Made by a program: the position numbers and the translations under genes. Source: Flavobacteriales bacterium (lineage in GTDB: Bacteria > Bacteroidota > Bacteroidia > Flavobacteriales_F > PHOS-HE28). From it: a stretch of 53,628 bases of DNA. Numbering within the stretch: the stretch's first letter is position 1; each line of letters opens with the position of its first letter. The stretch spans positions 8,564-62,191 of the forward strand of contig JAGPDT010000013.1 of the NCBI GenBank assembly GCA_018057455.1, written 5' to 3'. The notes under the pieces are model-generated. The model was not told where the DNA came from. It did no database searches and saw only the letters and a list, made by a program, of their open reading frames with translations. This document shows, one piece after another, positions 8,281-34,686 of this stretch.

Positions 8281-8323
8281 GAATGTTCATCGGGGCGTCG
8301 TGGCTGCGAAAGTAGGCCTGTTG

Positions 8324-8348
8324 CCCCACTCTCCTCCCCTTAACCCCA
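8324..8348 (-). promoter_or_regulatory. mraZ: Paired TGGGG elements in the mraZ leader (possible MraZ sites)
   Basis: On the minus strand TGGGG occurs at 8348-8344 and again at 8328-8324, exactly 20 bases apart, with a G-rich stretch between. MraZ of E. coli binds TGGGN repeats on a 10-base period. The middle copy is not in register, so this is only a candidate. It lies just downstream of the predicted transcription start. Confidence 0.3.
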
Positions 8349-8371
8349 CTTTGTTCAAAACTATTGCCCCG

Positions 8372-8403
8372 CAAACATAGATCATGTCCGCATGCTCATC
8401 AAA
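8372..8403 (-). promoter_or_regulatory. Bacteroidota-type promoter of the mraZ-dcw operon
   Basis: Read on the minus strand: TTTG (8403-8400), a 20-base spacer, then TATGTTTG (8379-8372), a perfect TAnnTTTG -7 box. Both boxes and the spacer fit the published Bacteroidota consensus (TTG, 17-23 bases, TAnnTTTG). Transcription would start near 8365, giving a leader of about 85 bases before mraZ. Confidence 0.75.
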
Positions 8404-8433
8404 TAATTCAGAATTGTCAAGCAATTTCAGTGG

Positions 8434-8448
8434 TGGGTGAATGTGGGA
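8434..8448 (+). promoter_or_regulatory. Candidate MraZ box, TGGGN-N5-TGGGN
   Basis: TGGGT (8434-8438), five bases, TGGGA (8444-8448): two copies on the exact 10-base period known for MraZ operators. The repeats read on the plus strand, opposite to mraZ, and lie about 30 bases upstream of the mraZ -33 box. Binding by MraZ is inferred. Confidence 0.4.
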
Positions 8449-8621
8449 GAAAAATTCAAACCCCGGGTTTTCCACACCCCTGCCCTGCGCCCAGGAACCT
8501 TCGGGGACCGTTGCTGCACAAGCCTTTCCCCACTTGCGCCACCTTCCGCCCCCGGCTCACCGGCACAGCCCGTCCGCGTGCCTGTGGACCGGGCCGGTGT
8601 GGCCCCCACGCTGCTTCCCCA

Positions 8622-8630
8622 TTACTTTGG
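8622..8630 (+). promoter_or_regulatory. Possible -7 box for the UbiA/DprE operon
   Basis: TTACTTTGG sits 8 bases before ATG 8639; TTACTTTG differs from TAnnTTTG at one base. The same sequence type precedes many genes of this window. No convincing TTG -33 element was seen, so the promoter is tentative. It also favours the 8639 start. Confidence 0.4.
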
Positions 8631-8638
8631 TTCTTCGG

Positions 8639-9538
8639 ATGGGAGAGCATTCCACCAAAGGCTCCTTCGGTTTGGGTACGCTCATGCGCCTGTTGCGTGT
8701 GCAGCAATGGGTGAAGAACGGCTTCGTGTTCTTCCCGGCCTTCTTTGCCGCAGTGATCCTCCGGGAAGACGTGGTCCAACGCACGCTCATCGGCTTCTTC
8801 TGCTTCAGCCTGGCGGCTTCCGCCGTGTACCTGCTCAACGACCTGCGCGATGTGGGGCAGGACCGCCTGCACCCGGAGAAACGCCGCCGTCCGATCGCTG
8901 CCGGGGAGGTGAGCACGGCCGTGGTACCATGGATCAGCGGCTTGTTGGCCGTTGCGGCCCTGGCCGGTGCTTGGTGCACCGAACCCCGTTTTGGCTGGGT
9001 GGTGGCCGTGTACATGGGCATGAACTTCTTGTACTCCATGGGCTTGAAGCATGTGCCGATCCTGGATGTAAGCATCATTGCCGCGGGTTTCCTGCTGCGC
9101 ATCCATGCCGGTGGCATCCTGGCCCGGGTGCCCGTGTCCCAATGGATCGAGCTCATCACCTTCCTGCTTGCGCTGTTCCTCGCGCTGGCCAAGCGGCGGG
9201 ATGACCTCGTGCTCACCCTCGGCCCCGGGGAGGTGAGGGCCAGCCTGCGCGGCTACAACCTGCCCTTCGTGGACGCCGGCATGATCACCTTGGCGGCCGT
9301 GGTGGTGCAGTCCTACATCATGTATACCGTAAGCAGTGAGGTCACCGGGCGGCTGGGCTCGGAGAAGGTGTACATCACCAGTGTGTTCGTGGTGCTTGGC
9401 ATCCTGCGCTACTTCCAATTGACACTGGTGGAAATGCGCACGGGCGATCCCTCGCGGCTGGTATTCCAGGACCGGCCCATCCGTTTGATCATCCTGGGCT
9501 GGCTCCTCTCATTCGCCATCATCCTCTATGCGCTCTGA
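8639..9538 (+). CDS. UbiA-family polyprenyl-phosphate phosphoribosyltransferase (DPPR synthase-like)
   Basis: 299 residues from ATG 8639; in-frame starts at 8441 and 8684 are alternatives, and 8639 was chosen because it follows the -7-like box and keeps the conserved MRLLRVQQWVKN segment. Eight or nine membrane helices are visible. The prenyl-diphosphate/Mg motif reads NDLRD...DRLHPEKRRRPI (67-86), the pattern of 5-phosphoribosyl-1-diphosphate:decaprenyl-phosphate phosphoribosyltransferase (mycobacterial Rv3806c/UbiA) rather than quinone-pathway UbiA. Predicted reaction: transfer of 5-phosphoribose from PRPP to a polyprenyl phosphate in the inner membrane. The next gene overlaps it by 11 bases and encodes the following pathway steps, which strongly supports the call. 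Confidence 0.85.
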   Translation: MGEHSTKGSFGLGTLMRLLRVQQWVKNGFVFFPAFFAAVILREDVVQRTLIGFFCFSLAASAVYLLNDLRDVGQDRLHPEKRRRPIAAGEVSTAVVPWISGLLAVAALAGAWCTEPRFGWVVAVYMGMNFLYSMGLKHVPILDVSIIAAGFLLRIHAGGILARVPVSQWIELITFLLALFLALAKRRDDLVLTLGPGEVRASLRGYNLPFVDAGMITLAAVVVQSYIMYTVSSEVTGRLGSEKVYITSVFVVLGILRYFQLTLVEMRTGDPSRLVFQDRPIRLIILGWLLSFAIILYAL

Positions 9539-11630
9539 ACACGGCCGGTGGAGCAACTGGGGCCTCTTCCCCACCGTTACCGGCACCGCCTGGTGGCCGC
9601 GCAACGCCGAGGAAGCCGGGCAGTTGCTGGAGAAACCTGGCCAACTGGGCCCGCGCGGCAACGGGCGCTCCTATGGTGATGCCTCATTGGCCCGCCGGAT
9701 GATGAGCGGCTTGGACCTGGAGGAGATCTTCGAACTGGACCAAGCCGCGGGCACGTTGCGGTGCGGCGCGGGCATGCTGCTGGACGAGGTGCTGCTGCGC
9801 ACCGTGCCACAAGGCTACTTCCTGCCGGTAACGCCAGGCACGCGGCTGGTGAGCCTCGGCGGCGCCATCGCCGGGGACATCCACGGCAAGAACCACCATG
9901 TGGACGGCAGTATCTCGGCCTTCGTGGACAGCATCACCCTGCTTACCGGCGATGGCGGGCGCACCCCCTGCTCGCGCACGGTGCTCCCGGAGCTTTTCTG
10001 GGCCACCTGCGGCGGCATGGGGCTCACCGGTTTCATCCTCGAAGCCACCCTGAGGATGAAGCCGGTCACCTCCGCGTACATCCGCCAACGCAGCATCAAA
10101 TGCAGCAACCTCGATGAACTCTTCGCACGCTTTGAAGAATACCGGCACGCCACCTACAGCGTTGCCTGGATCGACCTGATGGCCACCGGCCGCCACAAAG
10201 GCCGATCGGTTCTGCTCCTGGGCGAACATGCCGCCGCTGCGGAACTGCCCCGGTCTCGGGCCAAGGCCCCGCTGCGCACCCATGGGCGCCAGCGTGTGAA
10301 GGTGCCGTTCCGGTTCCCGGGTTTCGCGCTCGCGCCCATCACCGTGAAACTCTTCAATCGGCTCTACTACTTCAAAGCCGACGGTACGGGCAAGGACCGG
10401 TACGTGCACTACGCACCCTACTTCCACCCCTTGGATGCCGTGGGCGATTGGAACAAGATATACGGCCGCAAGGGCTTCGTGCAGTACCAGTTCGTGGTAC
10501 CGCCCGAGGTGGGCAGGCACGTCATGGGCAGCATCCTGGAGACCTTGCGGCGCCACGGCATGGTGAGCTTTTTGGCGGTGCTCAAGCGCTTCGGCCCGGG
10601 TGCTGCACAGAGCCCATTGAGCTTCCCCACCGAAGGCTACACCTTGGCCCTGGACATTCCCTTGCGCAAGCACACCTTGGCCGTGCTGGACCAATTGGAC
10701 CAGCAGGTGGCCGATGCCGGTGGCCGGATCTACCTGGCCAAAGATGCCCGCATGTCCGCCGCCATGGTGGCAAAAACCTATCCGCTACTGGGGCCATTCC
10801 GCCTGGTGGCCGCCCAATATGGCCGGGGGCGTTTCAGCACGGCCCTGGCCGAGCGCCTGGACCTGCTTGGCGTGAACACACCCCGACCGGACTTCGATCC
10901 ACGCCGCGTGCTCATCCTCGGGGCCGGCTCGGGCATGGCCACGGCGCTGGCGTGGGAATTCGCGCGCAGCGGGCACCCCTTGGTGCTGGCCCAGCGCAAC
11001 GTGGCGGCGGGCGAAGCCTTGTGCGAACGGCTCCGCATGGAAACCGGCACGGTGTGCAGCGCGGTGGCGTTCGATGCGGAAACCACCGAAGGGCATGCGG
11101 CCTTCTACGCAGGGCTCGATCCCCGGCCCGGCATCGTGGTCTGCGCCTTCGGCCTCTTGCCGGACCAGGCCGCCGCGCAGGAAGAACCCGGTGGTGCCTT
11201 GCGCACCCTGGCGGTGAACTACACCGGCGCCGTGAGCATCCTGGAAGAGGCCGCGCGCGACCTGGAGACCCGCGGCACAGGGTGCATCATCGGCATCTCC
11301 TCGGTGGCCGGCGACCGCGGACGCGCCAGCAACTACTTCTATGGCAGCGCCAAAGCCGGTTTCACCGCCTACCTCAGCGGCCTGCGCAACCGGCTGCACC
11401 GCCCGGGCGTGCACGTGCTCACCGTGAAGCCGGGCTTCGTACGCACCCGCATGACCGAAGGCCTGCCGCTGCCTGCACCCCTCACCGCCACCGCGCAGCA
11501 GGCGGCCAAGGCCATCTTCCGCGCCTATCGGCGCAAGAGCAACACCATCTACGTGTTGGGCCGTTGGCGCTGGATCATGCACATCATCACCCTGCTGCCC
11601 GAAGGTCTCTTCAAACGCCTTAATCTGTGA
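9528..11630 (+). CDS. Fused decaprenylphosphoryl-beta-D-ribose 2'-epimerase, DprE1-DprE2
   Basis: 700 residues. Residues 1 to about 450 are a DprE1-like FAD oxidase: FAD-binding GNGRSYGD (44-51), VTPGTR and IHGKNHHVDGS (118-128, Lys121 matching Mtb Lys134), FLAVLKRFGP, and AKDAR with Lys405 matching Mtb Lys418. Residues about 458-700 are a DprE2-like short-chain reductase: nucleotide loop GAGSGM (465-470), SSVAGDRGRASNYFYGSAK with Tyr605 and Lys609. In mycobacteria these are two proteins that together convert polyprenyl-P-ribose to polyprenyl-P-arabinose through a 2'-keto intermediate. Here both steps are on one chain. The residue aligned with Mtb Cys387 is Ala374. It overlaps the UbiA gene by 11 bases. 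Confidence 0.9.
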   Translation: MRSEHGRWSNWGLFPTVTGTAWWPRNAEEAGQLLEKPGQLGPRGNGRSYGDASLARRMMSGLDLEEIFELDQAAGTLRCGAGMLLDEVLLRTVPQGYFLPVTPGTRLVSLGGAIAGDIHGKNHHVDGSISAFVDSITLLTGDGGRTPCSRTVLPELFWATCGGMGLTGFILEATLRMKPVTSAYIRQRSIKCSNLDELFARFEEYRHATYSVAWIDLMATGRHKGRSVLLLGEHAAAAELPRSRAKAPLRTHGRQRVKVPFRFPGFALAPITVKLFNRLYYFKADGTGKDRYVHYAPYFHPLDAVGDWNKIYGRKGFVQYQFVVPPEVGRHVMGSILETLRRHGMVSFLAVLKRFGPGAAQSPLSFPTEGYTLALDIPLRKHTLAVLDQLDQQVADAGGRIYLAKDARMSAAMVAKTYPLLGPFRLVAAQYGRGRFSTALAERLDLLGVNTPRPDFDPRRVLILGAGSGMATALAWEFARSGHPLVLAQRNVAAGEALCERLRMETGTVCSAVAFDAETTEGHAAFYAGLDPRPGIVVCAFGLLPDQAAAQEEPGGALRTLAVNYTGAVSILEEAARDLETRGTGCIIGISSVAGDRGRASNYFYGSAKAGFTAYLSGLRNRLHRPGVHVLTVKPGFVRTRMTEGLPLPAPLTATAQQAAKAIFRAYRRKSNTIYVLGRWRWIMHIITLLPEGLFKRLNL

Positions 11631-12229
11631 GGAACGTAGCCCTGTTCGACCTGGACGGCACCCTCACACGGGCCGACACCCTGCTGGAGTTCCTGGACTT
11701 CGCCCTGGGCAAGGGCCGTGCGTGCCTATCGCTGGCCTCCACAACACCGTTATGGGCCGCTGCCCGCCTCGGGTGCACCGCGGACGACGCCCCCAAGAAG
11801 GCACTGGTGCGGCGGGTGTTCGGTGGGCAACCGGTGGCCTGGTGGGCCGAACAAGCCGAACGCTTCCGGCTCCAACGCATGCCGCGGCTGCTCCGGAGCG
11901 GCGCCTTGCAAGCGGTCGCGGACCTGCAACGCCAAGGGACCGAAGCGTTCATTGTGACCGCCTCGTGCACCTTGTGGGTTGAACCCTGGTGCCGCCAACA
12001 CGGCCTTGGCTGCATCGCCACGGAACTGGAGAGCGACGGCATACGCTACACCGGGCGCCTGGCCACGCCCAACTGCAAAGGCGGGGAGAAGGTGCGCCGG
12101 ATCCATGCACACTTCGGCACGGATGCCGTTGCCTATCTTCACGCCTACGGTGATACGCCCAGCGACCGCCCCATGCTGGCCTTGGCCAAGGAAGCACACT
12201 ACAAGCCTTTCCGCCAAGCACCGGCCTGA
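11627..12229 (+). CDS. HAD-superfamily (IB-type) phosphatase, candidate DPPR phosphatase
   Basis: 200 residues from GTG 11627, whose GTGA overlaps the preceding stop. HAD motifs are present: DLDGTLT (motif I, Asp8 nucleophile), VTAS (motif II), a lysine in NCKGGEK (motif III) and GDTPSDRPML (motif IV). This is the serine-phosphatase-like IB class. Between the phosphoribosyltransferase and the epimerase the pathway needs removal of the 5-phosphate; mycobacteria are thought to use a PAP2-type enzyme (Rv3807c). Position and coupling make this HAD protein the likely substitute. Substrate is inferred only from context. Confidence 0.75.
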   Translation: MRNVALFDLDGTLTRADTLLEFLDFALGKGRACLSLASTTPLWAAARLGCTADDAPKKALVRRVFGGQPVAWWAEQAERFRLQRMPRLLRSGALQAVADLQRQGTEAFIVTASCTLWVEPWCRQHGLGCIATELESDGIRYTGRLATPNCKGGEKVRRIHAHFGTDAVAYLHAYGDTPSDRPMLALAKEAHYKPFRQAPA

Positions 12230-12243
12230 ACCAGTCCTCCCCC

Positions 12244-12672
12244 ATGCACACCGCCCAGGGTTTCAGGTTCGGCTTCCTCGGCATGGCCTTGGCGCTGCTC
12301 GGGGCAGGGGCCATGCATCAGGCATGGCCGCCGCTGGCACGGTCCGCCGTGGTGGGCACCTACCAGCGCATCGAGCCATTGCTGCTCCCGGTGGGCCGCA
12401 CGCCGCAACAAGTGGTGCTGCATGCCAATGGCACCATGGAACTGGCAGGCCTGCCGGACAAGGGCACCGTGGTGCACCCTTGGCAGTGGGACCCGCAGGA
12501 ACGGGTCGTGCGCACCAACGACCCGGCCTGGGACCGGAGGATACGCCTGCGTTCCACCTGGCGGGGCCCCAGGTTGTGCCTGCGCATTTGTGATACGCCC
12601 TTGTTGCAGGACCAGGAGGAACGGGATGAAGAAGTGGACTACATCCGCGTCCCAGCGCGCAAGGACCCATGA
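12244..12672 (+). CDS. Small membrane-anchored protein of unknown function
   Basis: 142 residues: one hydrophobic N-terminal segment (about 9-28) that could be a signal anchor or uncleaved signal peptide, then a hydrophilic domain of about 110 residues. The stretches GTYQ, VVLHANGTMEL and the Trp-rich middle suggest a small beta-rich, lipocalin-like fold, but I do not recognise a family. It lies 14 bases after the HAD gene, and its stop overlaps the next start (ATGA), so it belongs to the same operon and may act with the membrane glycosyltransferase. Confidence 0.6.
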   Translation: MHTAQGFRFGFLGMALALLGAGAMHQAWPPLARSAVVGTYQRIEPLLLPVGRTPQQVVLHANGTMELAGLPDKGTVVHPWQWDPQERVVRTNDPAWDRRIRLRSTWRGPRLCLRICDTPLLQDQEERDEEVDYIRVPARKDP

Positions 12673-14327
12673 AGAACGTGCCCTTGCAGGAGCGCATGGA
12701 GCGCCGCCGGACCGCTTGGGCGGCCGTACTCTTGTTCCTGTTCATGCTGGTGCTGGCCTTTGTACCGGCATGGAAGGCCGTGGCGGGGCTGGCTAGGGGC
12801 GCCACCATCGACCTGCACCGCGATGAAGCCTTCGTGCGGGCCTTGCTGGAAGGGCACTATGGCGAAGACCCCACCTACCTGGGCGGCGGCTTGTGGTACA
12901 CCCCGCTGATCACGTGGCTCGAAGCAGCCGCGACGTACCTCACCGGCATGCCTGCGGCACAGGCCATCGTGCAACTGGGCCCCTTTGCCAACCTGCTGGC
13001 CCCGGTGACCTTCTTCATCATGTGCTGGTACTTCCTGGGACCCGTACGGGCCGTGGCCGCCACGGCGGCATACCTCTTCTGGGCCATCGGGCAGGAGCCG
13101 GGCTGGGTGGTGGCCACCTACAGCCACCGGCTGATCCCGGTGTCCTTCAGCCAGAGCTTCTTCTTCCTGGAGCTCATCCTCATCGACAAGGCATTCCGCA
13201 AGGACCGGCCGTGGCCTTCCCTGGCAGCCGGGTTGGGCGCGGGCCTCACCTTTCTGGCCCACGCCGGACCGGCCATCCTGGCCGTGCTGCTCATTGCACT
13301 GGTCACCTGCGTGAAATTGGTGGTGGCCTACCGCCGGAAAAACCTGCCGATGGCCCGGGGGGCCACCATCGCCTGCTTATTCGCAGCTGGCGGTTTCCTT
13401 GCTGCCAGCCTGCCCCTCACCTGGTACCTGTTCAAGGGAAGCATGCAGGTGGCCAACCGCGAGGGCTTCTTGTTCACCTACTACGCCCTCACCCTGCAGC
13501 ACCTGGGGCTGTTGCTCTACCATAACCTTACCTGGTACATGCTCCTTGCCGCGGCCGGGTTCATCCTGGTGGTGCGGCGATCGGCCCTTTCCGGAGCCTC
13601 GGCACACACCCGCACGCTCCTGCTCTGCTGGCTGATGGTGGCCGTGGCGCTGTTCGTGTACAGCTACGCGATCAGCGTGGCCGATTCGCACCTGGGCATC
13701 AGCCTGCCCGCGCTGCTGCCCACCTTCCATTTCTACTTCTACGCCAGTGCCGTGCTGTCGGTATTTGCGGGGCAGGCCTTCGTGGTGGCGCTGCTACGGG
13801 CCTGGGCCTGGCTGCATGCGCGCCATTGGGCCCGGCGGTCCCTGGCCCGCACCGACCTGGCCATGGGCTGCTTCCTGGTGATCGCCTTGTGCTGCACCTT
13901 GAACTATCCGGCCTACGCCACCCGGCGCGATGTGGCCGTGGTGCGCAGCCGCGACCTGGCCTTTCAAGCAGACCGGCTTGGGGCCGAAGCCGCCGACCGC
14001 ATCCATGCGCTGGTGCCGTGGACGGGCGTGGTGCTCTGCCGCAAAGACCTGAGCATTTGGCCCCTGCTGTGCACGGCACGCCATGTGGTGGCCACCGCCA
14101 GCACCATGGGCAACCCCTACCTGGACCAACGTAAAAGGGAAGCGGACAACGAGCTGTTGCTGCAGGGCATGGAACAGGCCCGCACGGATACCGGCCCGTT
14201 GCTCCGCGCTTACAAGGTGAGCCACTTGCTGGTACGCCCCTCTGAACTGGCCCGCATGCCGGAGGCCCCGCGCTGGTTTCCCCACGAAGTGTTCCGCAAC
14301 GACAGCTACATACTACTGGCCCGGTGA
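12669..14327 (+). CDS. Polytopic membrane protein, probable GT-C-type lipid-linked-sugar glycosyltransferase
   Basis: 552 residues with roughly ten membrane helices up to about residue 420 and a soluble C-terminal domain of about 130 residues. After the first helix comes an extracytoplasmic loop with TIDLHRDE (46-53), an acidic motif where GT-C enzymes that use polyprenyl-phosphate sugars place their catalytic Asp/Glu, followed by a YTPLITW segment. I do not recognise a named family. As last gene of the presumed polyprenyl-P-arabinose operon it is the natural candidate to consume that donor, transferring the pentose to a surface acceptor outside the inner membrane. Confidence 0.6.
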   Translation: MKNVPLQERMERRRTAWAAVLLFLFMLVLAFVPAWKAVAGLARGATIDLHRDEAFVRALLEGHYGEDPTYLGGGLWYTPLITWLEAAATYLTGMPAAQAIVQLGPFANLLAPVTFFIMCWYFLGPVRAVAATAAYLFWAIGQEPGWVVATYSHRLIPVSFSQSFFFLELILIDKAFRKDRPWPSLAAGLGAGLTFLAHAGPAILAVLLIALVTCVKLVVAYRRKNLPMARGATIACLFAAGGFLAASLPLTWYLFKGSMQVANREGFLFTYYALTLQHLGLLLYHNLTWYMLLAAAGFILVVRRSALSGASAHTRTLLLCWLMVAVALFVYSYAISVADSHLGISLPALLPTFHFYFYASAVLSVFAGQAFVVALLRAWAWLHARHWARRSLARTDLAMGCFLVIALCCTLNYPAYATRRDVAVVRSRDLAFQADRLGAEAADRIHALVPWTGVVLCRKDLSIWPLLCTARHVVATASTMGNPYLDQRKREADNELLLQGMEQARTDTGPLLRAYKVSHLLVRPSELARMPEAPRWFPHEVFRNDSYILLAR

Positions 14328-14383: not shown

Positions 14384-15145
14384 ATGGCGCAACCGCTGAA
14401 GGAAGCCGGGGAGTTCCGTTACATCGACGCAGGCGACGGCCCTCCGCTGCTGTTCCTGCACGGCCTGTTCGGCGCATTGAGCAACTTCGAGGACACCACG
14501 GCGCACTTCGCCCGGAACTACCGCGTGGTGATGCCCATCCTGCCGCTCTATTCCCTGCCGATGCTCAACACCAACGTCAATGCCTTGGCGGATTTCCTGG
14601 GGCGGTTCATCCGGCATTTGGGCCTGCGCGAGATCAACCTGTTGGGCAATTCATTGGGCGGGCATGTGGCCCTGGTGCACTGCAGCCGGCCCGGGCACCA
14701 TGTGCGCACCCTTACGCTCACGGGCAGCAGCGGGCTGTATGAAAATGCCTTCGGCGGCGGCTTTCCCCGGCGCGAGGACAAGGAGTTCATCCGCAAGAAG
14801 GTGGCCGTCACTTTCCACGATCCGAAATTCGCCACCGACGAACTGGTGAACGAATGCTTTGAGACGGTGAACGACAAGGCCAAGCTGATCCGCATCCTCT
14901 CCTTGGCCAAAAGCGCCATCCGCCACAACATGGCCGCCGAGCTGCCCAAGCTGAAGATGCCCGTTTGCCTGATCTGGGGCCGGCAGGACACCATCACCCC
15001 GCCGCATGTGGCCGAGGAATTCCACACCCTGATCCCCCATAGTGACCTCTTCTGGATCGACCAGTGCGGCCATGCCGCCATGATGGAGCAACCCGCGGAA
15101 TTCAACGGGCTCCTGGATGCGTGGCTGGGGAAGACATTTCGCTGA
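14384..15145 (+). CDS. Alpha/beta-fold hydrolase
   Basis: 253 residues from ATG 14384. A GTG at 14324 overlapping the upstream stop is possible, but the TACATTTG box between them favours 14384, which also starts cleanly at the domain. The fold is clear: oxyanion segment FLHGLFG, nucleophile elbow GNSLGG, acid in WGRQDTITP and His in QCGHAAMMEQP. The substrate cannot be read from the sequence; esterases and C-C hydrolases share this pattern. It is followed by engB, an arrangement I remember from other Bacteroidota. Confidence 0.85.
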   Translation: MAQPLKEAGEFRYIDAGDGPPLLFLHGLFGALSNFEDTTAHFARNYRVVMPILPLYSLPMLNTNVNALADFLGRFIRHLGLREINLLGNSLGGHVALVHCSRPGHHVRTLTLTGSSGLYENAFGGGFPRREDKEFIRKKVAVTFHDPKFATDELVNECFETVNDKAKLIRILSLAKSAIRHNMAAELPKLKMPVCLIWGRQDTITPPHVAEEFHTLIPHSDLFWIDQCGHAAMMEQPAEFNGLLDAWLGKTFR

Positions 15146-15893: not shown

Positions 15894-16226
15894 CTACTTC
15901 TTCTTCAGGTCCGGCAGCATATGCTCGGCGAAGTAGGCAGCGAAATCGCGCATCTGCGCGGCCATCTTCTCCTCGTTGGTGGCCCGCTCAAAGGTGTCCG
16001 CCAGGGTGAGGATGTTCTGGTGGAAGAAGGCTTTCATCTCATCGGTGGTCATCCCCTTGGTCCAGAGGTCGATGCGCAACGTATTCAGCTCCTGGGCATC
16101 CCAGAAGCTCAACAGCATGGCTTTGCCAACGCCCTGCCCGCCCCCGTCATCGGCTTTCCATTCGATGTTCTCGGGCACATGGTTCTCGTCCAGATGGACA
16201 CGTATGGTGATGTCGGTCTCTTTCAT
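15894..16226 (-). CDS. gldC: Gliding motility protein GldC
   Basis: 110 residues from ATG 16226. The conserved GldC pattern is easy to see: HLDENHVPENIEW, KAMLLSFWD, LRIDLWTKGMTTDEMKAFFHQ, ADTFERATNEEKM and MRDFAAYFAEH. GldC is a small soluble protein found with GldB in gliding Bacteroidota; its biochemical role is unclear. It lies 82 bases after gldB in the same direction. Presence of gldB and gldC suggests, but does not prove, gliding or a type IX secretion system. Confidence 0.92.
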   Translation of the reverse strand: MKETDITIRVHLDENHVPENIEWKADDGGGQGVGKAMLLSFWDAQELNTLRIDLWTKGMTTDEMKAFFHQNILTLADTFERATNEEKMAAQMRDFAAYFAEHMLPDLKKK

Positions 16227-16308
16227 AGGGTATCGGGGCAGCGAATTGTCCGGGGGCTGAGGCAAGTCCGTTTCAACGTCCGGCATTCCGCCAGCCCGTA
16301 GCGGGAGT

Positions 16309-17337
16309 TCACCGGGGTTTGTAGGTTTTGAGGATGGCCTGCGGGTCGCGCATGGCAAAGAGCTCGGCAAAGGTCACCTTGGGATTGGCCCTCAGGTAGC
16401 TTTCCACCAAACGGTGGCCGATCCACTCGCCGATGTGGCCCGGGCTCTCGCGGGGCATGCCCGGGGTGAAGGGGCCGTCGTTCAAGAAGCGGTCGATCAC
16501 CTTGGGGTCCTTGGAGTAAAGCAGCTCGTTGGCCACCAGCTCCCGCCACATGTTGAACTCATTGTCCTCGCACCACTTGAGCTGGGCCGGGGTGAAGGCG
16601 AACTTCAGGCTGGCATCGGTGCCCGGCAACAACGCATCCAGCAGGGCCATCACCTTGCCGATCACCACCAGGTTGGTGAGGAGGTCCTCCCCGCGCACAT
16701 CCCGGGTGTAGTGCACCTGCAACCAGCCCTTCACCACGCTGGGCACCAGCATGTCGGGGCGCATGCGGTCCTTGCGGTACTGCGGGAACAGCTCCGGGGA
16801 GAGGTACTGCACCACGGGGCTGTTCCTGCCCACGAACCATTCCACGCCGAAGCCCAGCACGCTGTCGGTGGGCAACACACCGTAGTTGAAGCCCGAGTTG
16901 TAGGCGATGATGCGCGGCACCAGGCTGTCCGGGAAGAAGCTCTTGAGCCGCCCGAAGGCCTCCGTGAAACCGGCCTCCTGCTCGGCCATGTCACCGAGCA
17001 TGCTGTCGGCCAGGTGCTGCACACGGCTCCAGTCGGGGTCGTGCGTGAACTGGATCAAGGCCATGGGCAGCCGCGGGTCGTTGTAGGCCGCGGCTTGCAG
17101 CACCTGCTCCACGTACATTTTGTAGAAGGGGCCGTAGGTGGCATACAAGCGCAGGCTGAAGTTGCCGGCGGAATCATTCGCCGCGCGGAACAGGTCCTGG
17201 TCCAAGCGTTCGATCCGCACCCCGGCGTGCACGGGCTCCTTGCTGCGCGCAGGGCTTTCACCACCCCTGCAGCCGATCAGGGTGCCCAGGAGCAGGGCGG
17301 CTGCCAGTACGGCTCGTCGGTTACCTTTGGCCATCAT
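16309..17337 (-). CDS. gldB: Gliding motility lipoprotein GldB
   Basis: 342 residues from ATG 17337 (a second ATG follows at once). The N-terminus is a lipoprotein signal with lipobox LIGC (Cys23 or so), so the protein should be anchored in the envelope. The body has the GldB pattern: RLDQDLF near the start, ATYGPFY, a DSMLGDM helix, IIAYNSGFNYG, EWFVGR, HYTRDVRGEDLLTNLVVIGK, and HIGEWIGHRLVESYL near the end. GldB is needed for gliding in Flavobacterium. The same frame continues open far upstream across the PorT-like gene; that extension is rejected because the lipobox sits at the expected start. Confidence 0.9.
   Translation of the reverse strand: MMAKGNRRAVLAAALLLGTLIGCRGGESPARSKEPVHAGVRIERLDQDLFRAANDSAGNFSLRLYATYGPFYKMYVEQVLQAAAYNDPRLPMALIQFTHDPDWSRVQHLADSMLGDMAEQEAGFTEAFGRLKSFFPDSLVPRIIAYNSGFNYGVLPTDSVLGFGVEWFVGRNSPVVQYLSPELFPQYRKDRMRPDMLVPSVVKGWLQVHYTRDVRGEDLLTNLVVIGKVMALLDALLPGTDASLKFAFTPAQLKWCEDNEFNMWRELVANELLYSKDPKVIDRFLNDGPFTPGMPRESPGHIGEWIGHRLVESYLRANPKVTFAELFAMRDPQAILKTYKPR
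17322..17329 (+). promoter_or_regulatory. Promoter -7 box TACCTTTG for the PorT-like gene, inside gldB codons
   Basis: Perfect TAnnTTTG on the plus strand, 29 bases before ATG 17359 and within the first codons of the divergent gldB. No clear TTG at the -33 position. Confidence 0.45.
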
Positions 17338-23821: not shown

Positions 23822-25087
23822 TCACATGGCCGCCACCACCGCACCGGCTACCCGCCCGGCTCCACCCGTCCGCTCCTGCACATAGCGGGCCGCTGCTGCG
23901 GAAGCTTTCCCCAGTGCCTGCGGATCATCCAGCCACCGTCTCCATGCGGCCTGCAGTTCCGCTGCGTTGCGCACCTCCTGCCCCGCACCGGCATCGATCA
24001 AGCCCTGTGCTTCGGGGAACTTGCGGTGCTTGGGCCCGAAGATCACCGGCACGCCCCATGCCGCGGCCTCCAGCAGGCTGTGGATGCCGCCCGTGAAACC
24101 GCCGCCTACGTAGGCCACTTGGCCGTAGCGGTATAGCCGTGCCAGCAAGCCCATTTCATCCACCAGCAGAGTGCCCTTGTTCTCCGCGCCCAGCATGGCC
24201 GCCACGCTTTCCAGCGGGCTATGCGCCAGTTCACTCCAGCGCGCCAACGGCTTGGGGAATGCCCGTTCGATGGCCGCCAGCTGCGCCTCCTGCAGTTCGT
24301 GCGGCACCATGATGCACTTCGGGGCCGCCTTGGAAGCATGGGCCAGTGCTGCCGCCAACAACGCGTCGTCCTCCGGCCAGGTGCTGCCGCACACCAGCAC
24401 GGGAGCGTTTCCCGCAAAGGCACGGGCCAAGGGCAGGTCATGCGTTGCCGATGCGATGGCCGCCACGCGGTCGAAGCGGGTATCACCACCCACCGAGGCC
24501 GCCCTCACGCCAAGGCCATCCAGGGGTCGCAACGAGGCTTCATCCTGCGTGAAGATGTGCGTGAAGCACCGGAGCATGCTCCGCCATGCGCCGCCGTACC
24601 ATTTGAAGAAGGGCTGGTCCTTGCGGAACAAGGCCGAGACCAGGAACACGGGCACCCGGTGGCTTTGCAAGGCATGCAGATGGTGGTACCAGAACTCGTA
24701 CTTCACGAAGATGGCCGCTGAAGGGCGCACCAGGCGCAGCAACGCTCCGGCATTGGAACGGCTGTCCGGCGGCAGGTATTCCACGTGCGTGGCCAAGGGT
24801 TCGTGCTTGCGGGCCTCATAGCCGCTGGGGCTGAAGAAGGTGAGCAGCACGGGCATGTCGGGGCGTTGGGCTTTGATGGCCTCCAACACGGGTCTCCCCT
24901 GTTCAAATTCACCCACGCTGGCGCAGTGCATCCATAGGCAACCCTGGAGTTTCGGGGCGGCCTGTTCCATCCGCTCCCACAATTGCGCACGGCCCTTTAC
25001 CCAAGCAGCAGCCTTCGGGTTCCAGAGCGATGAAAGCCGGATCGCGCCGTGGTACGCCCCGATGCCCAGGTCGTAGAGCAACGGCAT
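23822..25087 (-). CDS. waaA: 3-deoxy-D-manno-octulosonic acid (Kdo) transferase
   Basis: 421 residues, a GT-B enzyme anchored at the inner membrane by its N-terminus, which adds Kdo from CMP-Kdo to lipid A. Family marks: WMHCASVGEFEQGRPV (catalytic Glu in ASVGE), KYEFWYHHL, GSTWPEDD, VPHELQE and a C-terminal YVGGGFTGGIHSLLEAAAWGVPVIFGP, the nucleotide-sugar region. It shows that the organism makes lipopolysaccharide or a related lipid A glycolipid. The start shares one base with the stop of the upstream barrel gene (TGATG). Confidence 0.93.
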   Translation of the reverse strand: MPLLYDLGIGAYHGAIRLSSLWNPKAAAWVKGRAQLWERMEQAAPKLQGCLWMHCASVGEFEQGRPVLEAIKAQRPDMPVLLTFFSPSGYEARKHEPLATHVEYLPPDSRSNAGALLRLVRPSAAIFVKYEFWYHHLHALQSHRVPVFLVSALFRKDQPFFKWYGGAWRSMLRCFTHIFTQDEASLRPLDGLGVRAASVGGDTRFDRVAAIASATHDLPLARAFAGNAPVLVCGSTWPEDDALLAAALAHASKAAPKCIMVPHELQEAQLAAIERAFPKPLARWSELAHSPLESVAAMLGAENKGTLLVDEMGLLARLYRYGQVAYVGGGFTGGIHSLLEAAAWGVPVIFGPKHRKFPEAQGLIDAGAGQEVRNAAELQAAWRRWLDDPQALGKASAAAARYVQERTGGAGRVAGAVVAAM

Positions 25088-27138: not shown

Positions 27139-28470
27139 ATGAACCTAGCTGTAGTTGGAACCGGATATGTGGGCCTGGTCACGGGCACCTGCTTTGCCGA
27201 AACCGGCAACCACGTGACCTGCGTGGACATCGACCAGGAGAAGGTAAGGAAGCTCCAGGCCGGTGAAGTGCCCATCTATGAACCGCACCTGGACGTGCTC
27301 TTCGAGCGCAACATCCGCCAAGGGCGCTTGGAGTTCACCACCAACCTGAAAGAGGCCATAGACCAGGCGGAGATCATTTTCCTGGCCCTGCCCACACCGC
27401 CCGGCGAAGACGGCAGCGCCGACCTGCAATACGTGCTGGGCGTGGCCAAGGAATTGGGCAAGCTCCTCACGGGCTACAAGGTGATCGTGGACAAGAGCAC
27501 GGTGCCGGTGGGCACGGCCGAGAAGGTGCGGGAAGCGGTGGCGCAGCACGCAAAGGTTCCCTTCGACGTGGTGAGCAATCCGGAGTTCCTGCGCGAGGGT
27601 TTCGCCGTGGACGACTTCCTGAAACCGGACCGCGTGGTGGTGGGCACCAGCAGCGCCCGTGCCCGCAAGCTGATGGAGGACCTGTACAAACCGTTCGTGC
27701 GCCAAGGCAACCCCATCCTATTCATGGACGAGCGCAGCGCCGAGCTCACCAAATACGCCGCCAACGCCTTCCTGGCCATGAAGATCACCTTCATGAACGA
27801 GATCGCCAACTTCTGCGAGGCCGTGGGCGCCGACGTGGACAAGGTGCGCATCGGCCTGGGCACCGATAGCCGCATCGGCAAACGCTTCCTCTTCCCCGGC
27901 ATCGGCTATGGCGGCAGCTGCTTCCCCAAGGACGTGCAGGCCTTGGCCCACAGCGGGGAAGAAGCCGGCTACCGGTTCCAGATCATCAACAGCGTGATGA
28001 AAGTGAACGAACGCCAGAAGGCCAGCCTGGTGGACAAGATCAAGGCCCACTATGGCGAGGACCTCCGCGGCAGGCACTTCGCCCTCTGGGGCCTGTCCTT
28101 CAAGCCGGATACCGACGACATCCGCGAGGCCCCTGCGCTGTACATGATCGAGGCGTTGACCCGGGCCGGCGCCACCATCACCGCGTTCGATCCCGAGGCC
28201 ATGGACAACGTGCGGCGCATCCTGGGCGACACGGTGAACTACGCGCCCGATGAATACGCCGCGCTCATGGGCGCCGATGCCCTGATCATCGCCACCGAAT
28301 GGGCCGTGTTCCGCAACCCGGAACTTGCCCGCATGGAACAGCTGATGAAGGAGAAGACCATCTTCGACGGCCGGAACCTCTACGACCTGGATGAAATGAA
28401 GGACCAGGGCTTCCACTACGTCAGCATCGGCCGCCAGCCCGTGAACGTCCCCATCAAAGCCAACGCCTGA
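27139..28470 (+). CDS. ugd: UDP-glucose 6-dehydrogenase
   Basis: 443 residues. NAD-dependent oxidation of UDP-glucose to UDP-glucuronate. N-terminal Rossmann motif [10 protein letters not shown] (8-17), [24 protein letters not shown], the [17 protein letters not shown] helix, and catalytic Cys in YGGSCFPKD. The C-terminal UDP-binding domain has [16 protein letters not shown]. The next gene, two bases after its stop, uses UDP-glucuronate directly. Confidence 0.94.
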
Positions 28471-28471
28471 C

Positions 28472-29521
28472 ATGGCCAGAAAGGTCGCCCCCCCACGCAA
28501 CAAGGCCGTGGCCAAACCGGTGCAAAGCGCCGGAAAGGAACGCGTGCTCATCACCGGTGCCGCCGGATTCCTGGGCTCGCACCTGTGCGACAGGTTCCTC
28601 CGGGAAGGCTTCCATGTGATCGGCATGGACAACCTGATCACCGGCCGCCTGAAGAACATCGAACACCTCTTCCAGCGCAGCGATTTCGAGTTCCACCACC
28701 ACGACGTGACCAAGTTCGTGCATGTGCCCGGCCAGCTGAAGTACATCCTGCACTTCGCCAGCCCGGCCAGCCCCATCGACTACCTGAAGATCCCCATCCA
28801 GACGCTGAAGGTGAGCTCCCTGGGCACGCACAACCTGCTGGGCCTGGCCTTGGAAAAGAAAGCCCGGATCCTGGTGGCCAGCACCAGCGAGGTGTACGGC
28901 GACCCGCAGGTGCACCCGCAGACCGAGGACTATTGGGGCCACGTGAACACCGTGGGGCCGCGCGGGGTGTACGACGAGGCCAAGCGCTTCCAGGAGGCCA
29001 TCACCATGGCCTACCACACCTACCACGGCCTGGAAACGCGCATCGTGCGCATCTTCAACACGTACGGCCCGCGCATGCGCCTCAACGACGGGCGCGTGCT
29101 GCCCGCCTTCATCGGCCAGGCCTTGCGTGGCGAGGACCTCACCATCTTCGGCAAAGGCGACCAGACCCGCAGCTTCTGCTACGTGGACGACCTGGTGGAG
29201 GGCATCTACCGCTTGCTGAAGAGCGGCCATGCCGGCCCGGTGAACGTGGGCAATCCGGCGGAGATCACCATCAAGCAGTTCGCCCAGGAGATCGTGAAGC
29301 TCACCGGCACCAAGCAGAAGCTGGTGTACAAGCCGCTGCCGCAGGACGACCCCATGCAGCGCAAGCCGGACATCACCCTGGCCAAGAAACTGTTGAAGTG
29401 GCAACCCAAAGTGGACCGCGCCGAAGGGCTGAAGATCACCTATGCCTATTTCAAAGGCCTCACCAAGGCGGAGCTGAACGAAAAGGAGCACAATACCTTC
29501 GAGGGCTACGTGCGCAAGTGA
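28472..29521 (+). CDS. UDP-glucuronate decarboxylase (UDP-xylose synthase)
   Basis: 349 residues, extended SDR. NAD motif [10 protein letters not shown] (about 29-38), active-site Ser/Tyr/Lys region [21 protein letters not shown]...RGVYDEAKR (YxxxK with YDEAK), FNTYGPRM and the Arg-rich RSFCYVDD. The TxEDYWGxVN and RGxYDEAKR patterns are diagnostic of UXS. It converts UDP-glucuronate to UDP-xylose. A basic 20-residue leader precedes the domain. It is coupled to ugd, so the pair makes a pentose donor from UDP-glucose. Confidence 0.93.
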
Positions 29522-29537
29522 AGATGCACACGATCAC

Positions 29538-29545
29538 TATCTTCG
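29538..29545 (+). promoter_or_regulatory. Promoter -7-like box TATCTTCG before the toxin-antitoxin pair
   Basis: TAnnTTCG with only four bases before ATG 29550, which would give a leaderless antitoxin mRNA. Confidence 0.4.
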
Positions 29546-29549
29546 TTCC

Positions 29550-29753
29550 ATGGCGCGGAAGCAACGCACGGTCACCAAAAGTTCCGTCTTGAAGACTTTG
29601 AAAGAACTCCCGGACCGGTTCGATGTGGACGATCTGATCGAGCGTATAGTCCTGTTGCAAAAGGTAGAAGAAGGCATCGCGGATGCTAAAGCGGGAAGGG
29701 TAAGCACACTTGAGGAGATGCGTTCACATATTGAGCGCAAATGGTCGAAGTGA
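29550..29753 (+). CDS. Antitoxin of a ParE/RelE-type module
   Basis: 67 residues. It carries LKTLKELPDRFDVDDLIERI followed by a helix ending in a short linker and a basic C-terminus (HIERKWSK), the layout of small antitoxins paired with ParE-like toxins in Bacteroidota. No DNA-binding fold is obvious. The last 13 bases overlap the toxin gene, the usual order (antitoxin first). Confidence 0.75.
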   Translation: MARKQRTVTKSSVLKTLKELPDRFDVDDLIERIVLLQKVEEGIADAKAGRVSTLEEMRSHIERKWSK

Positions 29754-30058
29754 CCTGGACGGCCAGGGCGCGAAAGGACCTTGACGGCATCAGTGCCTAC
29801 CTCGCGGAAGGCAGTCCATACTACGCCCAACAAACGGAATGGGGTATTTTCCAACGGGCGATCCAGCTTGAAAAGCAGCCACGCTCCGGCCATCCGGCAA
29901 AGGAGATCGGCGATCCCACCGTGCGCAAGATCGGGTATGGGCGATATCGCATGATCGATTGGCTTTCCGATCCCGGTCACATTGCTTTCGTGGCGGTGGT
30001 CCACTCCGGTCGGAACATGACGCGTTCGGCACTCCGTTCAAGGCGTAAGGAGAAATGA
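29741..30058 (+). CDS. ParE/RelE-family toxin
   Basis: 105 residues. The type II toxin pattern is visible: an N-terminal TWTARARKDLDGISAYLA helix, PRSGHPAKEIGDPTVRKI, then the beta-hairpin GRYRMIDWLSDPGHIAFVAVVHSGRN. The conserved Arg in YGRYRMI and the HSGRN strand match ParE/RelE. Whether it acts on gyrase (ParE) or on ribosome-bound mRNA (RelE) cannot be decided by eye. Its stop overlaps the ATG of the downstream broken gene. Confidence 0.85.
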   Translation: MVEVTWTARARKDLDGISAYLAEGSPYYAQQTEWGIFQRAIQLEKQPRSGHPAKEIGDPTVRKIGYGRYRMIDWLSDPGHIAFVAVVHSGRNMTRSALRSRRKEK

Positions 30059-30864
30059 CCGAATTGCGTGTGGCCGGTGTGCCCGAGCCCTACAACCTGC
30101 CCTGGCACCTCGCCCGGGAATAGGGCCTCTTCAAGAAGGCGGGCATCGAACTACACTGGCACGAGGTGCATGAAGGCACCGGCCGCATGTGCCAAATGCT
30201 GCGCGATGGCGAGCTGGACATGGCCGTACTGGTCACCGAAGGCGCCGTGCGCGACATCCTCACCGGCGGCCCGCACCGCATCGTCAGCAGTTTTGTGGAC
30301 AGTCCGTTGCCCTGGGGCGTGCATGTGCCTGCGCGGTCAACCTTGGGCAAGGAAGACCTGAAAGGCACCCCGTACGCCATCAGCCGCATGGGCAGTGGCA
30401 GCCACATCATGGCCATGCTCCACGCCGGGAAACAGGGCTGGCGGCCAACGGGGAAGGACCTTGAAGTGGTGCACAACATGGCCGGCGCCGCGGAACGGAT
30501 GCAGCATGGCCCCCCGGTGCTCTTCCTCTGGGAGCGTTACGTCACCCAGCGCTACGTGGATGCGGGCCTCATGCGCCGCGTGGACGTGATCAGGGCACCC
30601 TGGCCCGGCTTCGTCATCACCGCCCGCAACGGGTTTGCGGAGCGCCATCCGGAAGCGGTCGAGCGGGCATTGGGAATCTTGCGCAGTGAAACCGAAGCGC
30701 TGAAGGATGGCCCGCACGCGGCGGGCTTGGTGATGCGGAATGCGGGTTTCGGCGAGGCCGTGGCCCATGAATGGTTGCAGCATGCAAGGTGGAAGGTGGC
30801 CCCGGTGGTACCGTCATCGCTGGATGAACTGGGCCGGACGCTGGCTGCACTTGATCTGATCTGA
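30055..30864 (+). pseudogene. ABC-type substrate-binding-protein-like gene with in-frame amber codon
   Basis: From ATG 30055 (overlapping the toxin stop) the frame reads 22 codons, MTELRVAGVP...HLARE, then TAG at 30121-30123, and continues open for 246 codons to 30864. Protein similarity is continuous across the stop: the expected text HLARE(E)GLFKKAGIELHWHE is the N-terminal lobe of NMT1/THI5- or taurine-type periplasmic-binding proteins, and one change (GAG to TAG) explains it. Later text includes GDGELDMAV-like GELDMAVLVTEGA and GTPYAISRMGSGSH. No signal peptide. Re-initiation at ATG 30166 would give 232 residues without the first strand. Could be a recent pseudogene or a sequencing error. 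Confidence 0.75.
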
Positions 30865-30969
30865 CATCCCCATCCTGGTGCAAGGGTCGCGACCCAAGCA
30901 GCGGCCTCATGGTCCACTGCCTGAAAGTGATCCAACAGGGGTGGGCATCGCGCCAACGCCGTGGACCTG

Positions 30970-31584
30970 CTACCCCGCCACCCACGCCCACACCCCTGCC
31001 GCCACCAGCAGCACCCCCAGTGCGCGGAACAGGCGTAGCAGCGTTTGGTCCGCCATGCGTTCGCGCAGGTGGCCGCCCAGGCGGATCAGCAAGAGCAGCA
31101 GGGCCATGGCCCCGATGAAGGCACCCAGGCCGAAGCCCGCCATGGCGCCCCACCCCTGCACTTGCAGGCCCGCGGCCTCCATGGCCAGGCGCACCCCGCA
31201 CCAGAAGAGCGCGAGTTGCGGGTTCATCAAGCCCAGCACCAGGCCTCGGCGGAAGCCGCTGCGCACCTGCACCTCCTCCTTGATGTGGAAGGGCTTCATC
31301 ACCAAGGCGATGTACAAGCCCAGCCCCACCATCACAACACCCGAGATGCGGCCCGGCGTAACGCCCCACTGCCCGGTGTAGCCCAGTACTTGGTCGGCCG
31401 CCACGAAGGCCAACGCGGCATACAGCATTTCCGGCAACGACCCGCCCAGGGCGGTGCTCCGTGCCGCAAGGGGTCCGTGGCGCAAGGTGGCGGCCAGCAC
31501 GGCCGTATTCACCAGCCCGGCCTGCAGCGAGCCGATGAAACTGGCCACCGTGGCCACCAGCAGGGCAAGCAGCGCATCCATCAT
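30970..31584 (-). CDS. LysE/RhtB-family membrane exporter
   Basis: 204 residues with about six membrane helices. The family signatures are seen as a Gly/Gln-rich first helix (SFIGSLQAGLVNTAV), AALAFVAADQVL and GLMNPQLALFWCGV, which matches the conserved NP-kA.fW segment of LysE-type translocators. Members export amino acids or small metabolites across the inner membrane; substrate unknown. ATG 31581 is an equally good start. Convergent with the broken binding-protein gene; the 105-base gap between them shows nothing recognisable. Confidence 0.8.
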   Translation of the reverse strand: MMDALLALLVATVASFIGSLQAGLVNTAVLAATLRHGPLAARSTALGGSLPEMLYAALAFVAADQVLGYTGQWGVTPGRISGVVMVGLGLYIALVMKPFHIKEEVQVRSGFRRGLVLGLMNPQLALFWCGVRLAMEAAGLQVQGWGAMAGFGLGAFIGAMALLLLLIRLGGHLRERMADQTLLRLFRALGVLLVAAGVWAWVAG

Positions 31585-31632
31585 GCAGGGCGGAAAATTA
31601 GCGACTGCCGCCCTTGGGCAACACCCCGTGCC

Positions 31633-31667
31633 TTTGGGCCGAAGTCCCCGCCACGGCGTTACTTTCG
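31633..31667 (+). promoter_or_regulatory. Promoter for the wbpD/B/A-type genes
   Basis: TTTG (31633-31636), a 23-base spacer, then TACTTTCG (31660-31667), 12 bases before ATG 31680. TAnnTTCG variant of the Bacteroidota promoter. Confidence 0.5.
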
Positions 31668-31679
31668 CGCTCCCTTTCC

Positions 31680-32255
31680 ATGAGCGATTACTCCGCCCAC
31701 CCCACCGCCGTCATCGACGAGGGCTGCACCATCGGCACGGGCAGCCGCATTTGGCATTTCAGCCACCTGATGCCCGGCTGCGTGATCGGCGAACGCTGCA
31801 ACATCGGGCAGAACGTGGTGGTGAGCCCCGGCGTGAAGCTGGGCAACAACGTGAAGGTGCAGAACAACGTGAGCATCTACACCGGTGTGGAGTGCGGTGA
31901 TGACGTCTTCCTGGGGCCCAGCTGCGTGTTCACCAACGTGATCAACCCGCGCAGCGCGGTGAACCGCCGGGAACAATACGCCCGGACCCGCGTGGGCACC
32001 GGGGCCAGCATCGGCGCCAACGCCACCATCGTCTGCGGGCACGACATCGGGGAATACGCCTTCATCGGTGCCGGGGCCGTGGTCACCCGGACTGTACCGG
32101 CCTACGCGCTGGTGGTGGGCAACCCTGCCCGGCAAACGGGCTGGATGAGCGAGTACGGCCACAAACTGGCGTTTGATGCCCGGGGCGAAGCCACCTGCCC
32201 GGAAAGCGGCCAACTCTACCAACTGAAAAACGACCGCGTGACGCGCCTGGCATGA
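31680..32255 (+). CDS. UDP-3-amino-glucuronate N-acetyltransferase, WbpD-like (left-handed beta-helix)
   Basis: 191 residues from ATG 31680. Hexapeptide repeats run from about 10 to 145 ([74 protein letters not shown]). The Asn-Val-Ile-Asn-Pro-Arg segment TNVINPRS and the EYGHKL region are those of WbpD/WlbB enzymes, which acetylate UDP-GlcNAc(3NH2)A using acetyl-CoA. Its stop overlaps the start of the next pathway gene by four bases. Confidence 0.9.
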
Positions 32256-34568: not shown

Positions 34569-34626
34569 CCATGGGACCGGAGCGCCGCTTGAAAGGCGGT
34601 AACGGCCAGCAGAAAGTGGACCCGCG

Positions 34627-34634
34627 TACCTTCA
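34627..34634 (+). promoter_or_regulatory. Weak -7-like box TACCTTCA before rmlB
   Basis: Matches the local TACCTTCG form except for the last base; 52 bases before ATG 34687. Confidence 0.25.
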
Positions 34635-34686
34635 TCTTCGACCCCGCGCCCGGACCGGCGAACGAACAGCACACTTGGCCGAACCC

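Follow-up and report, generated by a model that had tools for sequence, protein, structure and literature searches.

We analysed a five-gene operon at 8639-14327 (+ strand) of a 53,628-nucleotide stretch of a Flavobacteriales bacterium genome (contig JAGPDT010000013.1, positions 8,564 to 62,191; the whole stretch is called the window below). Judged from its protein sequences, this operon probably makes and uses polyprenyl-phosphate beta-D-arabinofuranose, the sugar being transferred by a membrane protein that resembles glycosyltransferases of the C type (GT-C). It is very likely that the first three genes would supply this donor. The donor pathway (DPA, polyprenyl-phosphate arabinose) is already known and common in Bacteroidota; the less known part is the pair formed by open reading frame 4 (ORF4) and the GT-C gene. 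The five genes are as follows.

8639-9538, + strand: UbiA, putative polyprenyl-phosphate 5-phosphoribosyltransferase of the Rv3806c/DPPRS type (ATG start, 300 codons including the stop)
9528-11630, + strand: DprE1-DprE2 fusion, predicted polyprenyl-phosphate-ribose 2'-epimerase in one chain (700 aa)
11627-12229, + strand: HAD-IB phosphatase (GTG start), proposed to remove the 5'-phosphate
12244-12672, + strand: ORF4 (142 aa), N-terminal hydrophobic helix and a small beta-barrel-like domain, tentatively lipocalin-like
12669-14327, + strand: GT-C-like polytopic membrane protein of an unnamed family (552 aa), candidate arabinosyltransferase dependent on polyprenyl-phosphate-D-arabinofuranose (D-Araf)

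Neighboring genes in the operon overlap or lie 14 nt apart. UbiA and the fusion share 11 nt, the fusion and the HAD gene meet in a GTGA overlap, ORF4 and the GT-C gene in an ATGA overlap, and the 14-nt gap falls between HAD and ORF4. A second in-frame ATG is present upstream of the UbiA start, at 8441. All five reading frames have a codon-position G+C pattern like that of the adjacent core genes (0.80-0.86 at third positions) and are therefore supported as coding. An earlier interpretation made from the letters of this DNA alone (the sequence-only reading) had described five overlapping or near-contiguous genes, and the gene calls, the coding G+C pattern and the conserved order in relatives agree with it.

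UbiA scored 220 bits with NF008977 (cutoff 234) and 212 bits with NF008978 (cutoff 207), both models of decaprenyl-phosphate phosphoribosyltransferases, compared to 30 bits or less with the homogentisate and heme prenyltransferase models. The best models of non-DPPRS prenyltransferases gave 29-51 bits, the only exception being NF006088, a UbiA-family model (183 bits). UbiA also matched the DPPRS structure 8j8j in the PDB (E = 6.6e-42), with the motif ND-x2-D-x3-DR-x-HP-x-KR-x-RPIAAG aligned. By these matches it is a DPPRS-type phosphoribosyltransferase, as had been proposed, and the model scores reject a quinone or heme prenyltransferase. The third protein belongs to the HAD-IB group (PF12710, 1e-33; TIGR01490, 113 bits, above the cutoff) and carries the motifs DLDGT and GDTPSDRPML. 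A lipid-phosphate-pentose synthase and a phosphatase, UbiA and HAD-IB, are thus found in one operon. The HAD gene comes after DprE2 in most Bacteroidia DPA cassettes, and we propose that its product is a functional stand-in for Rv3807c or a PRP domain.

The second gene encodes, in a single open frame, an N-terminal flavin adenine dinucleotide (FAD) oxidase (residues ~9-447) and a C-terminal short-chain dehydrogenase/reductase (SDR; residues ~457-700). The first half matched DprE1 in the PDB at 1e-77 and the second matched DprE2 (21gq_C) at 1e-28. In the alignment, the DprE1 half retains HGKNHH, the QYQ motif, the AKD lysine (K418 in Mycobacterium tuberculosis) and the VFK/VLK lysine (K367 equivalent), and the SDR half retains S...Y-x3-K. 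Cys387 of the M. tuberculosis DprE1 (GWNVCVDFP) is replaced by alanine in the window (GYTLALDIP); cysteine occurs at this position only in the mycobacterial and corynebacterial sequences of the DprE1 alignment. In our tree the SDR half lies inside the DprE2 clade, which is split at 100/100 from eight other Bacteroidota SDRs, and this rejects a generic SDR. The closest company of the DprE2 half is from Bacteroidota and Campylobacterota rather than Actinobacteria; a one-off acquisition of the cassette from Actinobacteria is therefore not supported. These data indicate a DprE1 FAD oxidase with its catalytic residues and a DprE2 SDR reductase, and they uphold the fusion recognized in the sequence-only reading.

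The same reading held that the first three genes provide, on paper, a complete route from phosphoribosyl pyrophosphate (PRPP) to polyprenyl-phosphate-D-Araf, and the family and PDB matches and the retained catalytic residues bear this out. As expected of its family, UbiA would move 5-phosphoribose from PRPP onto polyprenyl phosphate, and the HAD enzyme, by its position and fold, would take off the 5'-phosphate. Within one polypeptide, the ribosyl lipid would be oxidised at C2 by the DprE1 half and the 2-keto intermediate reduced by the DprE2 half to the arabino epimer, in keeping with their families and conserved catalytic residues. The lipid would cross the membrane by way of a non-GtrA flippase encoded elsewhere. 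Finally the GT-C protein, possibly with ORF4, would put D-Araf on a surface acceptor, for example lipopolysaccharide (LPS) O-polysaccharide or an exported protein.

GT-C enzymes hold their catalytic acid in the loop after the first hydrophobic segment. The window protein has at least seven hydrophobic segments, and an alignment of 18 family sequences shows invariant D48, R51-D52, D67-P68, W76 and P79 after the first of these as well as a conserved C-terminal NPY. The topology and loop motifs fit the GT-C call made in the sequence-only reading, but a family match to go with it was not obtained, as the protein had no Pfam, NCBIfam or PDB match. Profile A1 of this family likewise gave no relevant match against all PDB chains up to E = 10, and so showed no sequence homology to the Emb and Aft proteins; structures of EmbA/B/C, AftA and AftD exist (PMC11127046).

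ORF4 had no Pfam, NCBIfam or PDB match either, including a profile search against the PDB. Its AlphaFold2 model (three sequences; mean predicted local distance difference test score, pLDDT, 72) consists of a helix at residues 6-27 and an eight-stranded barrel. Foldseek matched it weakly to Bacteroides lipocalin-like proteins (E = 0.02-0.04, TM about 0.4), and there was a weak Pfam match to GH43_C (E = 0.24). From this model we tentatively describe ORF4 as lipocalin-like. Its earlier description as a small membrane protein is correct as to the single N-terminal helix, but the predicted barrel-like domain speaks against a purely membrane protein.

The UbiA-DprE1-DprE2-HAD set is an ordinary cassette of many Bacteroidia. 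Of 395 genomes sampled across the phylum, 97 had a UbiA match (E <= 1e-30); of 395 sampled across the class, 56 had a DprE match (E <= 1e-50), and these represent 29 of 196 genera. UbiA, DprE1 and DprE2 were clustered at 12 of the 18 other class-level UbiA matches, with HAD also detected in 11 of these. A scan of named genomes added Gammaproteobacteria, Campylobacterota, Streptomyces, Chloroflexota and others. The earlier framing of the cassette as rare is rejected, as it is common in Bacteroidia and non-mycobacterial pentofuranose systems of this type were published as a widespread pathway in 2024 (PMC11127046). The one-frame fusion was seen in the window's genus, G033, G655 and G684; at the other loci DprE1 and DprE2 are separate genes. 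Cassettes such as those of Chishuiella changwenlii (L058) and G158 (L190) have the same gene order and enzymes as the window. They differ in that DprE1 and DprE2 are usually separate genes, and in that any polytopic protein beside the cassette is of a different family. In other classes of the phylum, many UbiA/DPPRS-like genes (L199-L212, L214-L218) are without DprE1/E2 or a related HAD nearby; the one at L199 scored 276 bits with the DPPRS model.

The polytopic neighbors at other Bacteroidia cassettes form several unrelated groups, one common to L050, L180, L183 and L184, another to L058, L180 and L181, and another to L054 and L184. A PMT_2 protein accompanies the L120 cassette and a TMEM260-like protein the L050 cassette, and there are further groups besides these. 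At eight loci of the f20 type (L185-L188, L191, L194, L195, L198) there was no polytopic neighbor within 3 kb. These neighborhoods suggest a constant DPA donor module with exchangeable transferases. It could be argued that the operon is simply a standard Bacteroidia DPA cassette, with a transferase that is nothing special and that decorates LPS as in the published O-antigen systems. The frequency of the cassette favors this, as do the LPS and sugar-nucleotide genes in the window (KDO transferase, UDP-GlcNAc and UDP-glucose dehydrogenases, dTDP-glucose dehydratase). On the other hand, the GT-C family fits none of those in Pfam, NCBIfam or the PDB and is nearly confined to the genus, and unrelated polytopic proteins replace it at other cassettes. 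We consider this ordinary explanation somewhat unlikely.

Two further groups of membrane proteins were seen at other cassettes. Polytopic proteins of ~550 aa lie beside DPA cassettes at L050 (3877-5541), L180 (7493-9166), L183 (10647-12302) and L184 (12302-13933); the three members scanned had no significant Pfam match, and this is another candidate arabinosyltransferase family. Homologous polytopic proteins of ~350 aa, of the acyltransferase-3 type by look, are encoded directly beside HAD at L050 (10633-11727), L054 (10626-11675) and L184 (5226-6278) and possibly acylate the arabinosylated glycan.

In the GT-C tree the window copy falls in an operonic clade A (window, G020, G004, G049, G002, G013 and G005), which is separate from an orphan clade B (98/96); the G158 copy branches before both, and a distant clade C lies beside uvrA or other genes. 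All six clade A copies with visible upstream context sit in DPA operons, and the seventh, from G005, has only 240 bp of contig before its start. Wherever this context is visible in clades A and B, ORF4 is directly upstream of the GT-C gene, as it is in most members in the genus. Several clade B members adjoin CusB/CzcA metal-efflux genes. Such ORF4/GT-C pairs beside CusB-like/CzcA-like genes (L126 7273-9359, L127 7747-9836, L175 6968-9057, L174 8862-10951) seem to sit on mobile islands for metal resistance, away from any DPA genes.

Outside the genus, the GT-C family was found in only one sampled genome, G158 (L190), which belongs to another family; the class and phylum samples overlap, at most three GT-C candidates per genome were scored, and distant members were possibly missed. 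The G158 gene has no ORF4 with it; it starts 75 bp past the end of a UbiA-DprE1-DprE2-HAD cassette and runs convergently to it. Its product was part of the search profile but was first found with the window protein alone. Such adjacency is unlikely to arise by chance in a 5.7-Mb genome (estimated at less than 1 in 1,000), and the occurrence of the gene beside the DPA cassette of another family supports the GT-C protein as arabinosyltransferase. The GT-C family is therefore linked to DPA in two bacterial families, though not exclusively.

A different explanation is that the DPA donor is made but ORF4 and GT-C form a separate mobile module for another polyprenyl-phosphate sugar, with the arabinosyltransferase encoded elsewhere in the genome. 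Consistent with this, ORF4/GT-C pairs lie beside CusB/CzcA-type genes without linked DPA and also occur in genomes that gave no UbiA match (G053, G059, G006, G048), and two genomes with DPA enzymes, G018 and G014, have no member of this GT-C family. The separation of the operonic from the orphan clade, both of them preceded in the tree by the DPA-linked copy of G158, the DPA linkage of the only GT-C sampled outside the genus and the translational overlap in the window all argue in the other direction, and we regard a separate module as unlikely. The sequence-only reading had given the cassette its own apparent transferase; the recurrent linkage between GT-C and DPA agrees with this, but the occurrence of the family without DPA and its absence from G018 and G014 do not. 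We think it reasonably likely that the operon's GT-C protein is the arabinosyltransferase.

Several observations weigh against the proposal that the operon makes and uses polyprenyl-phosphate-D-Araf. The operon contains no flippase gene, and the eight DPA-carrying species of the genus yielded no GtrA (PF04138) match and hence no GtrA flippase acting in trans; MATE/Wzx flippases elsewhere in the genome were not searched for. The same GtrA search was positive in two congeners lacking DPA genes and in seven control genomes. The DprE1 half scored 394 bits with NF053785 and the DprE2 half 191 bits with NF053786, below the NCBIfam cutoffs of 500 and 250; the SDR half passes an unnamed model, NF005489 (296 bits, cutoff 267), as do other Bacteroidota DprE2s. 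An AlphaFold2 model of the GT-C protein from three sequences was unusable (pLDDT 44), and its GT-C fold is putative. Clades B and C have no DPA genes nearby and often none in the genome, and the presence of the three donor enzymes without ORF4 or GT-C in G018 and G014 counts here as well. The pathway chemistry is deduced from family membership, and D-arabinose in this lineage is likewise a prediction. Related systems add ribofuranose or xylofuranose, the one GT-C tested tolerates more than one pentofuranose (Kelly et al., PMC11127046) and at several Bacteroidia loci UbiA-HAD has no DprE pair close to it (L179, L182, L196, L197), but it is very unlikely that the pathway ends at or feeds another pentofuranose (polyprenyl-phosphate-ribofuranose or the 2-keto form) and that the surface sugar is not D-arabinose, given that the fused protein has the two epimerase halves with their catalytic residues, and that DprE1/E2 homologues went with Araf-containing glycans in the published survey (PMC11127046).

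The general mechanism described by Kelly et al. in 2024 comprises a lipid-phosphate-pentofuranose, a flippase and a GT-C acting outside the cytoplasm (PMC11127046). By analogy, the operon is probably an Araf variant of these three-component systems. Because of the flippase results given above, we class it as working like them rather than as a full member. The Citrobacter youngae O1/O2 systems (GT136) resemble the window in having a UbiA-type polyprenyl phosphoribose synthase, HAD phosphatase activity, epimerisation of the lipid-linked pentofuranose on the lipid and a final GT-C, and Araf variants with DprE1/E2 have been described (PMC11127046). In contrast to them, HAD is a separate protein in the window rather than fused to the synthase, DprE1 and DprE2 form one chain, the operon lacks a MATE flippase gene, and the small ORF4 stands beside GT-C. 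The GT136 enzyme is C. youngae ORF12, which has a C-terminal carbohydrate-binding module.

Compared to the mycobacterial DPA pathway (Rv3806c, Rv3807c, DprE1, DprE2, Emb/Aft), the phosphoribosyltransferase and 2'-epimerase are homologous at the family level and keep their catalytic residues. The phosphatase differs, being a HAD protein in the window and in mycobacteria Rv3807c, which has another fold and is unrelated to HAD-family PRPs (PMC11127046). Further differences are the fusion of DprE1 with DprE2, alanine in place of Cys387 (the benzothiazinone target), the lack of an Emb/Aft-like sequence match and the negative search for an Rv3789-like GtrA flippase in the eight DPA genomes. Arabinosylation of the group IV pilin of Pseudomonas aeruginosa (PPPRS, PA7_6246, TfpW) combines polyprenyl-phosphate-D-Araf with a GT-C in a Gram-negative organism, as proposed for the window (PMC11127046, PMC11841053); unlike that system, the window operon has no adjoining pilin gene.

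D-arabinose is best known from the cell wall in tuberculosis; its furanose form is commonly regarded as typical of mycobacteria, and the pathway to its donor serves as a drug target. In many Bacteroidia the full donor cassette is present in conserved order, and the membrane enzymes next to it vary; in the open-licence literature that we searched, neither D-Araf nor DprE homologues were reported for surface glycans of Bacteroidota. If the assignment of GT-C and ORF4 is true, it gives a new transferase family, a concrete place to seek D-Araf in Gram-negative surface glycans, and DprE1 homologues with a natural alanine at the benzothiazinone-reactive cysteine. The one-chain fusion is a handy object for studying transfer of the 2-keto intermediate from oxidase to reductase. 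It could be speculated that GT-C is the founder of a new D-arabinofuranosyltransferase family with the membrane-anchored, lipocalin-like ORF4 as its dedicated partner, that several more unrelated transferase families are on Bacteroidota DPA cassettes and that D-Araf is a common unrecognised surface sugar; we hold this wider proposal tentatively.

Within the genus, the UbiA gene is present in 8 of 45 species, accompanied by the fusion and HAD in all eight. In six of these the set sits between mraZ and an alpha/beta hydrolase gene; in G013 and G014 it is at other sites. The complete five-gene order at this position is shared by G020, G049, G004 and G002, and G018 has the cassette there without ORF4 and GT-C. 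mraZ and the hydrolase gene are adjacent in relatives without the cassette at this site (G053, G006, G050, G019, G010, G016, G013, G014), and the operon coordinates therefore bound a real insertion. The cassette is an accessory insertion whose genes come and go together. The exception among the cassette-less relatives examined is G021, with ~3 kb of other sequence in the slot (L137 1974-4667), and the junction may be a general insertion site. The hydrolase was rejected as a member of the system, as it keeps its place beside mraZ/engB in cassette-less relatives.

Upstream of the operon is the divergent start of the dcw cluster, with mraZ (8280), rsmH, ftsL and ftsI on the - strand; downstream, the alpha/beta hydrolase (14384-15145) and then engB are both on the + strand. 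Further downstream, at a distance of 10-22 kb, are LPS and sugar-nucleotide genes, and their link to the acceptor is suggestive only. The remaining features are listed here.

8281-8638, no strand: mraZ-side junction of the insertion, from empty-site comparison with relatives
23822-25087, - strand: gene like those of 3-deoxy-D-manno-octulosonic acid (KDO) transferases
27139-35745, + strand: surface-glycan sugar genes, UDP-glucose dehydrogenase type and a 4,6-dehydratase/decarboxylase-like SDR
within 27139-35745, + strand: surface-glycan sugar genes, TviB-like UDP-GlcNAc C6-dehydrogenase with an oxidoreductase beside it, and dTDP-glucose 4,6-dehydratase

Directly downstream of engB are the gliding-motility genes GldC and GldB (15894-17202, - strand), the GldB match scoring 172 against a cutoff of 190.

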